Positions 17,887 through 36,058 of a DNA stretch of 64,000 bases are shown here, piece by piece (within the stretch, counting starts at the first letter, position 1; each line of letters starts with the position of its first letter). This DNA is from an uncultured Gammaproteobacteria bacterium (GTDB lineage: Bacteria; Pseudomonadota; Gammaproteobacteria; Eutrophobiales; Eutrophobiaceae): contig CALSRS010000001.1 of NCBI GenBank assembly GCA_943788815.1, forward strand, positions 434,001 to 498,000, read 5' to 3'. A program made the translations under genes and the position numbers. The notes beneath the pieces were generated by a model. The model made no database searches, was not told where the DNA came from, and saw only the letters and a list, made by a program, of their open reading frames with translations.

Positions 17887-18330
17887 TGACAACTTCTATT
17901 TATCCAACTATTACTCCGTCATGCTGGTGGAAACCAGCATCCAATAGTTGTTTGAGCGCCTGCGGCGCACTTTTATTATTGGATACTGGCTTTCGCCAGT
18001 ATGACGACCTAGGCATTCGCCAGTATGACGGCTTCTATTTATCCAACTATTACTCCGTCATGCTGGTGGAAACCAGCATCCAATCAGTTGTTTGAGCGCC
18101 TGCGGCGCACTTTATTATATTAGATTCTGGCTTTCGCCAGAATGACGACCTAGGCATTCGCCAGTATGACGGCTTCAATTTATCCAACTACTACTCCGTC
18201 ATGCTGGTGGAAACCAGCATCCAATCAATTGTTTGGGCGCCTGCGGCGCACTTTATTATATTAGATTCTGGCTTTCGCCAGTATGACGACCTAGGCATTC
18301 GCCAGTATGACGGCTCATCCTCTACATCAT
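17887..18330. repeat. Tandem array of about 140-bp hairpin units, three copies
   Basis: Units begin at about 17887, 18026 and 18167, with spacings of 139 and 141 bp at the shared TATCCAACTA. Each holds ATGCTGGTGGAAACCAGCAT, a central GCGCC-TGC-GGCGC, and ATTCTGGC-TTTC-GCCAGAAT or its ATACTGGC variant. Units differ at stem positions but keep pairing. No coding potential is seen in 17849-18417. Confidence 0.88.
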
Positions 18331-28811: not shown

Positions 28812-29065
28812 ATTGGATACTGGCTTTCGCCAGTATGATGGCGACTCGTTACTTCTCTATAACTTCGTCATGCTGGTGTAAACCAGCATCAAATCAATAC
28901 TATGTCCGCGCGATGCGCGGTCATTAACTACTGGGTTCCCGCTTTCGCGGGAACGACAGGTTCTTGTATATCGTCATTCCCGCGAAAGCGGGAATCCAGC
29001 CCATTAAATAACTGCCTTACAGGCAGACATATTACAATTAGATTCTGGCCTTCGCCAGAATGACG
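28812..29065. repeat. Cluster of compact hairpin elements
   Basis: A single hairpin at 28812-28840 and full three-hairpin elements at 28866-28959 and 28973-29065. The last has a different centre (CTGCC-TTA-CAGGCAG), so the central stem also varies while staying paired. Confidence 0.85.
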
Positions 29066-31576: not shown

Positions 31577-31863
31577 GTCATGCTCGTGCAAACCAGCATC
31601 CAGTCAATCTGATGACCGCACAATGCGTGGACTTTAATAGATTAGATTCTGGCGTTCGCCAGAATGACGGAAGTAGTAATTCACTATTTTAATAATCTAA
31701 GTATTCCGTCATGCTAATGTATACCAGCATCTAATCAGTACTATGACCGCGTAATGCGCGGACTTTAACTACTGGGTTCCCGCTTTCGCCGGAACGACGG
31801 TTATTTTTGTATCTCGTCATTCCCGTGAACGCCTACATCCATGTAGGCGTTCGCCAGTATGAC
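31577..31863. repeat. Three hairpin elements between parC and the N-acetyltransferase
   Basis: Three-hairpin elements at about 31577-31670 and 31707-31800, then a modular one at 31818-31863 (CCTACATCCATGTAGG inside the outer stem). Several stems here are imperfect (TGCTCGTGCAAACCAGCA), suggesting decay. No gene is seen in 31443-32023 apart from these arrays. Confidence 0.75.
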
Positions 31864-32885: not shown

Positions 32886-33222
32886 CGTCATGCTGGACTT
32901 GATCCAGCATCCAATCATTGTGATGACCACGCAAAGCGCAGACTTTATATTTTAGATTCTGGCTTCGGCTCAGGCTCAGGCTCCTCGAACGCTATTCCGG
33001 ACGCGTTTCTACCTCGGCAACTGTTCCCGACGTTGCTCTACCTCCTACGTCCTTGTAGTCGTCCTCCATCCCTGGAGTCGTGCTTCGCTCTCGGTCTTTG
33101 TTCCAGACGCGACTCTACCGATTCCATCCATGTAATCGTATCGCCTACATGGCCCAGGCCAGCTTCTCGACCGCTTCGCGGTCTCACCTCCTCCATGTAG
33201 GCGTTCGCCAGAATGACGAAAG
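32886..33222. repeat. Hairpin half-element and a very long modular element
   Basis: A left arm at 32886-32915 (ATGCTGGACTTGATCCAGCAT) is followed by a long module string to 33218, with stems GCAAC/GTTGC, CTAC/GTAG, CTCC/GGAG and GATTCC/GTAATC. Its last 77 bp are matched in inverted orientation at 35233-35309. No gene is seen in 32789-33269. Confidence 0.82.
33142..33218 (+). repeat. Inverted repeat flanking parE, left copy
   Basis: 77 bp from CGCCTACATGGCCCAGGCC to AGAATGACG; 75 of 77 bases match the reverse complement of 35233-35309. Confidence 0.85.
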
Positions 33223-35177: not shown

Positions 35178-35232
35178 TTAACTCGAGCGTATTTTAACAT
35201 GTATTATTAAACTGTGAGGAGATGAATTCAAC

Positions 35233-35309
35233 CGTCATACCGGCGAACGCCTACATGGAGGAGGTGAGACCGCGAAGCGGTCGAGAAGCTGGCCTGGGCC
35301 ATGTAGGCG
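35233..35309 (-). repeat. Inverted repeat flanking parE, right copy
   Basis: Reverse complement of 33142-33218 with two mismatches. It is also the left arm of the hairpin element that carries the GIY-YIG gene. Confidence 0.85.
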
Positions 35310-35337
35310 GTAGAGCGAAGCAGGAGCCAGTATCCAA

Positions 35338-35628
35338 TTAAAATATTTCCTTGTATAAATCTTTCCATTCTGGATTGAAATTATTTATTACTTCTAACTT
35401 CCATTGCCTTTTCCAGTATTTAATTGCTTTCTCTCTGGCTAACGCTGATAACATATCTTCATGATTCTCATACCATACTAATCGATCAAGATTGTATCTT
35501 TTAGAAAATCCTTCAATAAATTTATTTTTGTGTTGCCAGATTCTTTTTGGCAAATTTGAAGTGACACCAACATATAATGTGCCGTTCTTTTTATTTGTCA
35601 AAATATATACACAAGGTTGCCTCTCCAT
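35338..35628 (-). CDS. Small GIY-YIG nuclease
   Basis: A single-domain GIY-YIG endonuclease of about 96 residues. The motif appears as V-Y-I and Y-V-G in CVYILTNKKNGTLYVGVT, the catalytic Arg is in LPKRIWQHK, and the Glu is in ALAREKAIK, so the active site looks complete. The start at 35628 is preferred because GGAGG lies six bases upstream; a TTG at 35640 is further out. Such short proteins are commonly annotated near UvrC-like or YhbQ-like families, and their substrate is unknown. It lies exactly between two arms of the window's hairpin repeat, which suggests the repeat may be its substrate. Confidence 0.9.
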   Translation of the reverse strand: MERQPCVYILTNKKNGTLYVGVTSNLPKRIWQHKNKFIEGFSKRYNLDRLVWYENHEDMLSALAREKAIKYWKRQWKLEVINNFNPEWKDLYKEIF

Positions 35629-35730
35629 GGCTTCCTCCAAATATAATGAAGTTTTTTTTATATTGGATTCTGGCTTTCGCCAGAATGACGCGTAATCATA
35701 CTACTTAGTACATAGTTAGCTCTATAATAT

Positions 35731-35968: not shown

Positions 35969-36058
35969 AATAGTCACCGCGCTGACACCTAACCTTTCAC
36001 TTCTCACTTCTCACTTCTCACTCCTCACTCCTCACTCCTCACTCTTTACTTTTTACTC
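35969..36058. repeat. Heptameric repeat array starting in the amidohydrolase stop codon
   Basis: On the minus strand the units read GTAAAAA, GTAAAGA, GTGAGGA (three times), GTGAGAA (three times), GTGAAAG, GTTAGGT. The TAA stop of the amidohydrolase (36053-36055) is part of the first unit. Confidence 0.85.

Follow-up and report, generated by a model that had tools for sequence, protein, structure and literature searches.

In the 64,000-nucleotide stretch of DNA analysed here (the window), the gene for a 96-residue GIY-YIG nuclease fills the space between two inverted hairpins that belong to the window's main repeat. We put the probability at roughly 0.7 that this locus is an autonomous mobile element, consisting of inverted CGTC-tagged arms around one GIY-YIG nuclease gene whose product recognises its own arms, and that gene-less REPs are its non-autonomous derivatives. 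An autonomous element with gene-less derivatives had been proposed in the first-pass annotation of this DNA, and conserved ends, deletion-like gene-less copies and gene-free sites in congeners now support the proposal. The comparisons decisive for it come from a rhizobial genus and not from the window's genome.

The features of the locus are as follows.

35233..35338, plus strand: left arm, a CGTC-tagged REP hairpin, GTCATACCGGCGAA ... GGAGCCAGTATCCAAT, with an enlarged loop (sequence; nearest-hairpin test, locus L004)
35338..35628, minus strand: GIY-YIG nuclease gene, 96 aa, with an ATG start and residues Y8, Y19, R29, E66 and N85 present
35634..35638, minus strand: GGAGG, resembling a ribosome-binding site, before the nuclease ATG (sequence)
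35662..35690, minus strand: right arm, a CGTC-tagged REP hairpin, GTCATTCTGGCGAAAGCCAGAATCCAAT, inverted with respect to the left arm (sequence)

Read directly, the gene runs from an ATG at 35628 to a stop codon at 35338–35340 (TTA on the plus strand), which shares one base with the left arm; both the enclosure of the gene by inverted arms and the overlap of stop codon and arm edge had been seen correctly at first pass. The left arm starts with CGTCAT at 35233 and ends in ATCCAAT as annotated, with its last base at 35338 and not at 35339. It is not one of the compact arms it had been taken for but a REP whose very large loop brings it to about 105 nt. The right hairpin, ATTGGATTCTGGCTTTCGCCAGAATGACG, occupies 35662–35690 and so begins where it was expected, at about 35662. 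The protein matches the Pfam GIY-YIG family with 60.1 bits (cut-off 22.6), the sole Pfam family found in it at E ≤ 0.001, and the motifs described as intact are so: it has all five of the residues Y8, Y19, R29, E66 and N85, which we take to be the GIY-YIG active-site positions.

CGTC REPs, which include dRS3, RPE-4 and RPE-6 and are known from five phyla, are described by Di Nocera 2013 (PMC3733652) as a CGTC tag, a stem of 8–9 bp usually starting with AT, a short loop and a CCA tail, occurring mainly as inverted dimers. The window arms, for example GTCATTCTGGCGAAAGCCAGAATCCA, match this description in the tag, the AT start of the stem, the short loop, the CCA tail and the inverted dimers (PMC3733652), the left arm having its loop enlarged. 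High copy number and frequent inverted dimers were likewise found: the window's genome (G000) has 56 matches to the REP pattern and 0 to the reversed pattern, and five tail-in REP dimers lie within the window, which has no Rfam match at the gathering thresholds. Gene-less copies of the repeat include the following, none with an assigned strand.

17918..18311: compact dimers of this REP family without a gene and with central hairpin spacers, arranged as three units of about 140 bp in tandem
28973..29064: gene-less tail-in REP dimer with a 40-nt spacer
31577..31668: gene-less tail-in REP dimer with a 40-nt spacer

The compact copies in the window have spacers of 36–40 nt with no visible derivation from the window's copy of the nuclease gene. 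When 66 sequences of at least 8 kb, the window among them, were searched strictly for gene-less derivatives, none emerged; the filters excluded matches that touch an element and demanded long matches. In the congener G001, a stretch of some 35 nt inside one arm and another of some 23 nt inside the opposite arm are common to gene-bearing units and their gene-less neighbours. The 96-aa nuclease is single-copy in the window's genome, where the GIY-YIG matches number three: this protein, a 609-aa frame of UvrC size and a YhbQ-like protein (L001) in whose flanks no such hairpins were seen by eye. In three congeners (G001, G003 and G004), no hairpin was seen by eye in the gap that separates parE from the next gene; in G002, this gap contains one degenerate hairpin and no nuclease gene, but parE has a nuclease gene on its opposite flank. 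On these grounds the REP/nuclease cluster of the window looks like an insertion relative to its congeners.

The placement of the gene was examined across the family. Homologues were taken from 116 related genomes, from the best 80 of 583 loci of the species collection and from 398 phylum genomes, 102 of which have the subfamily at E ≤ 1e-15 and from which 30 loci were used; the window locus and one duplicate pair (L005/L034) are among them. For the flank tests, a place needed 100 bp or more on each side, and eight with shorter flanks were dropped. In a strict test, correctly oriented hairpins stand on both sides of 70/134 homologues and of 1/651 control ORFs from the same loci. The window locus fails this test because of its long loop, its pair being found by a nearest-hairpin test. 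By the latter, the tail-in inverted arrangement, whose frequency the first-pass annotation had wished to know, occurs at 55/133 homologues and at 0/651 control genes, the median distance of the arms from the matched coding stretch being 18 nt before it and 11 nt after it. REPs of any orientation flank both sides at 88/133 places (controls, 4/651) and at least one side at 118/133 (controls, 64/651). Head-in pairs (17/133; controls, 1/651), same-direction pairs (16/133; controls, 3/651) and one-sided layouts (30/133) count against the mobile-element reading, as do the 15/133 places where no hairpin was recognised. The annotation had staked its case on homologues having arms, and with these figures it is not refuted.

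Inverted similarity between the flanks exceeds the 99th percentile of controls at 89/133 homologues. Of 37 loci found on viral contigs, 31 entered the flank test and 30 were usable; 26 of these have an inverted flank match by the threshold of the earlier controls, no separate control being available for them. Direct repeats flank the nuclease gene in 67/129 testable loci. Among YhbQ-like paralogues, the strict test found hairpins on both sides in 0/30 and a one-sided hairpin in one; small GIY-YIG genes as such therefore carry no arms.

Individual loci vary. Head-in arms replace tail-in arms at L058, L050, L041 and 13 other loci (17 gene places). In Rhizobium tumorigenes (L224), no arms were seen by eye within 170 bp, a further point against a mobile element. 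On the Azospirillum lipoferum plasmid AZO_p3 (L228), a suf cluster has the nuclease gene between its sufB and sufC, flanked on either side by REP pairs. In Neisseria gonorrhoeae NZ_CP119140.1 (L259), a subfamily member lies among CGTC-type hairpins resembling dRS3; this 2.17-Mb record is filed as a plasmid and is probably a chromosome, and the plasmid gene table has no feature at the locus. The best 80 of the 583 species loci include bins titled Elusimicrobia, Nitrospinae, Parcubacteria and Anaerolineae besides Proteobacteria, with errors in metagenome bins possible.

The ends of the unit are defined best in a rhizobial genus (g193), which is probably Mesorhizobium, since the only plasmid record with a rhizobial arm is from Mesorhizobium; elsewhere, the plasmid search for the unit returned only parts of the gene. 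Copies in G167 and G282 share the order arm–gene–arm. When a 601-base query running from the flank into the element was compared with 99 genomes of the genus, 63 of the matches listed did not start in the flank, and 52 of these 63, as counted by eye, start at query positions 390–394, the outer end of the unit being at 392. Twenty-one of 25 copies, the reference L198 included, align from position 1 to 513; three are without one or two end bases, and L197 is truncated on its 3′ side. The first 24 copies are 487–517 in length, and at both ends their information content is 0.61 bits per base or less outside the unit and 1.85–1.98 inside it. As 20 of the 24 were picked from matches that reach the end, the conserved interior is partly a product of choice; the drop outside is not. 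Copies at different sites thus have common, defined ends in the rhizobial genus, as expected of a transposable element, and rhizobial copies elsewhere show little similarity in their flanks, with shared flanking repeats in some (L195/L196, and the left side of L273/L283). L195/L196 and L273/L283 are also close intragenomic copies in the gene tree, whose bootstrap is not settled.

No target-site duplication of at least 4 bp was found in the 24 copies (mean 0.67, against 0.68 for mispaired flanks). To our knowledge, IS200/IS605 elements make none either, so this is not decisive. L273–L292, L195 and L196 show a weak palindromic preference outside the ends, CTATC before and GATAGG after, which may mark the target. 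In a scan of 18 genomes, arm counts reach 95 in G167, 94 in G528 and 68 in G282 and are zero in G518, G586 and G520, with 0 matches to the reversed pattern in all 18; G518 has a full element with diverged arms despite its zero count. Among the matches listed from Rhizobium and Sinorhizobium plasmids, there was no clean empty site.

One rhizobial site, that of L198, exists in four states. In 28 scored genomes, it holds the full element in seven (G167 included), an internally deleted one in one (L238), a solo hairpin in eight and no hairpin in 12. The loci are the best 30 of 95 matching genomes, two of them without a flank; six solo and six empty sites were read, and the remainder were scored by match. 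The comparison of strains for empty sites, suggested at first pass, has thus turned up gene-free versions of this site in congeners. The solo form consists of the left arm up to CCCTAGAAT joined to the outer end of the right arm; it would result from a deletion between short direct repeats such as L195, for example, carries in its two arms. In a tree of 16 flanks from the site, full elements pair with solo sites twice (support 100/100 and 97/96) and with an empty site once (100/100). In a tree of 31 gene copies, those from the site cluster, with 2–3 changes (0/500 shuffles as low), which favours inheritance and recurrent loss at this site over recurrent insertion. Inheritance plus loss at an orthologous site counts against the mobile-element reading.

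Nine aligned gene-less dimers from the rhizobial genus, selected for spacings near 124 bp (G560 supplied seven, G538 and G590 one each; L357 and L359, with longer spacing, stand outside the alignment), retain both arms and recognisable portions of the two UTRs, whereas the gene is absent from between CAGAA and TTCTGC. Among the arms listed for G560, seven pairs are 123–125 bp apart and four are 449–450 bp apart, the latter being the spacing of gene-bearing arms. These dimers and L238 have the form expected of internal deletions, and in this genus we infer that the direction was from gene-bearing to gene-less.

Arms and nuclease change together. At 113 loci with a clear inverted pair (five duplicates removed), arm similarity rises with nuclease identity between genomes (Spearman rho 0.435); 0/500 permutations were as high, their maximum being 0.211. 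Paralogues in the same genome (36 pairs; median nuclease identity 0.51) have a median arm similarity of 0.24, and pairs from different genomes with nuclease identity of 0.45–0.55 (n = 2489) have one of 0.25. Similar arms (at least 0.7) occur in 4/36 same-genome pairs against 2.5% of comparable different-genome pairs, a point against the mobile-element reading, as is the divergence of most gene copies within one genome, where near-identical copies had been expected. Genome G507 has six nuclease paralogues. All have an inverted pair, which varies from paralogue to paralogue; the pair of L176 has the lowest score and no GTCAT, that of L179 lies further from its gene, and the arm types of L174 and L177 match each other. 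In 400 kb of the 434-kb contig C3 of this genome, the six arm types match 17 places with at most three substitutions, and 10 of the 17 adjoin the contig's five nuclease genes. With so few matches away from the genes, the arms there do not belong to an abundant repeat of the host that the genes dropped into.

This last result bears on the alternative that survives best, itself unlikely: that a homing gene landed in ready-made REPs. The nuclease would cut solo REPs of other origin, and repair from a gene-bearing copy would insert the gene, so that the REPs would be targets and not offspring. GIY-YIG homing endonucleases are indeed known, I-TevI and free-standing kinds among them, and, as the present gene would be, they are selfish nuclease genes able to spread; one site can hold a solo hairpin or a full element, the 16-flank tree places solo sites as sisters to two of its three full elements (L198/L236 and L231/L237), and the missing target-site duplication would also fit. 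Homing copies a gene into a cleavable allele by repair between homologous flanks; on this point the solo hairpins at the shared site and the low flank similarity of copies elsewhere pull in opposite directions. Against homing, REPs already in place are not seen in quantity on the G507 contig, and the arms follow the nuclease more closely than they follow the genome. Deletion across short direct repeats would turn the full form into the solo one, and the gene tree fits an old full element with losses. Unlike homing endonucleases, the protein here has a single domain of about 95 aa, and its gene has its own terminal hairpins, many sites and miniature derivatives.

The enzyme itself is well conserved. 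In 136 homologues, Y8 is present in 135, Y19 in 136, R29 in 135, E66 in 134 and N85 in 135; an in-frame stop in 10/136 tells against the mobile-element reading. Of the 31 copies, 21, mostly with full-length frames, entered the dN/dS analysis and two were dropped for gaps; the median over 170/171 pairs of the remaining 19 is 0.068, from which we conclude that the gene is under purifying selection. The predicted fold (mean pLDDT 94.7) matches UPF0213 best (1zg2, E 7e-4), with weaker matches to Slx1, 1ywl and UvrC; 1zg2 and 1ywl, the nearest solved structures, are also found by sequence search. UPF0213/YhbQ-like proteins share the fold and the size, and differ in that the 30 loci examined are without arms on both sides.

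The nuclease might instead be a domesticated protein of the host that trims or resolves the hairpins of REPs without moving them, using the REPs as substrate or regulatory site. Such a role would suit its structural neighbours (UPF0213, Slx1 and UvrC), the strong purifying selection and the presence of mostly one or a few diverged copies per genome. We consider this improbable and rank it behind homing: units of about 513 bp have sharp ends at many sites, L195/L196 and L273/L283 are close copies within genomes, presence varies between relatives, and most same-genome paralogue pairs have different arm types.

The REP pattern and the gene are strongly, though not strictly, associated. Among the 116 related genomes, the pattern is present in 21/28 gene-positive genomes (E ≤ 1e-20) and 21/88 others (p 2e-6, not corrected for relatedness); being restricted, it misses other arm types, so that seven gene-positive genomes score zero, most of which show other hairpins by eye. 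REP-rich genomes without the nuclease, G038, G041 and G044 (56, 39 and 73 pattern matches; genus g15 of the same family), count against the mobile-element reading: they have no subfamily member, only a UvrC-sized GIY-YIG protein, and either past loss or another enzyme would account for them.

Such genomes leave some room for the nuclease being cargo, a passenger or regulator on arms moved by a transposase encoded elsewhere (RAYT or IS), and Di Nocera 2013 suggested that other transposases might move CGTC REPs, which apparently have no dedicated one (PMC3733652). We hold this to be very unlikely, since co-divergence of arms and nuclease is not expected of a passenger and the species named in PMC3733652 include none with a tyrosine transposase gene flanked by CGTC REPs. 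Chance adjacency, in which small intergenic genes tend to adjoin intergenic repeats (REPs do sit mainly between genes; PMC3733652), is rejected by the controls (0/30 YhbQ-like loci with hairpins on both sides; 0/651 against 55/133) and by the matched arm pairs at each locus.

We return to the autonomous mobile element. Comparison of the loci demonstrates conserved outer ends at the GTCAT tag, co-change of arms and nuclease, many sites, and gene-less relatives that keep the ends and parts of the UTRs. A mechanism consistent with this would have the nuclease cut each end of the unit beside the outer GTC tag, at the foot of the hairpin (extruded or single-stranded) or close to it. As far as we know, GIY-YIG chemistry involves no covalent enzyme–DNA link, so rejoining of the freed or copied unit would be left to host repair or replication. 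Such rejoining would fit the absence of target-site duplications and the direct repeats and tandem units around many copies. Solo hairpins would be left by deletion between short direct repeats of the two arms, and gene-less REP dimers would be moved in trans.

Judged from sequence, the element works like the REP/RAYT system and like an autonomous element with its MITEs, using an unrelated enzyme, and it is not a RAYT. As in REP/RAYT systems (TnpA-REP), REPtrons and REPINs, inverted tagged palindromes flank one small nuclease gene, gene-less copies exist, and enzyme and palindrome form specific pairs (PMC8266576). RAYTs are HUH/Y1 tyrosine transposases with a GTAG tag; here, the fold matches UPF0213, Slx1 and UvrC and not a Y1 transposase with an HUH motif, and the tag of the flanking REPs is CGTC. 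The parallel with RAYTs, drawn at first pass with a different class of enzyme, is thus supported. The relation also resembles that of MITEs to the autonomous elements behind them, in that the two ends of the gene-bearing unit and portions of its UTRs on either side persist in the gene-less copies; unlike MITE systems, this one has a GIY-YIG nuclease in place of a known transposase, hairpin ends and no target-site duplication that we could find.

The enzyme family and the repeat family are each already known, and what appears to be new is the mobile system that joins them. GIY-YIG has 0 occurrences in the main text of PMC3733652, and no paper joining GIY-YIG to REPs was among the matches listed in our literature search, preprints and most subscription journals lying outside it. 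We lean, with less assurance than for the locus itself, towards a prokaryotic transposable element of a new class. It would encode a single-domain GIY-YIG nuclease and no other enzyme, have hairpin ends of its own and be the missing mobiliser of CGTC REPs; dRS3 of Neisseria and the GTCATTCCCGCGAAAGCGGGAATCC type would then be its miniature offspring. If a GIY-YIG nuclease does move these REPs, the question left in 2013 can be put to a direct test, using a 96-aa protein and a hairpin some 30 nt long, and the six differently armed paralogues of G507 are a ready specificity series. Bacterial transposition would gain one more enzyme class, a repeat family that shapes intergenic DNA in many genera would be explained, and the lifestyle of REP/RAYT would have been invented a second time, independently, and be open to comparison.

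Two further observations concern the window. A second repeat, CCTACATGGA ... GAAGCAGGAGCC, fills the loops of some of its REPs and so makes hairpins of more than 100 nt, at these positions:

2493-2613: second repeat in a REP loop
26639-26759: second repeat in a REP loop
27618-27732: second repeat in a REP loop
33139-33218: second repeat in a REP loop
35233-35312: second repeat in a REP loop

The last of these is the first 80 nt of the left arm of the nuclease locus, of which 33139–33218 is a 96% copy. Downstream of the REP cluster, at about 35995–36055, lies a short array of units resembling CACTTCT or CACTCCT.
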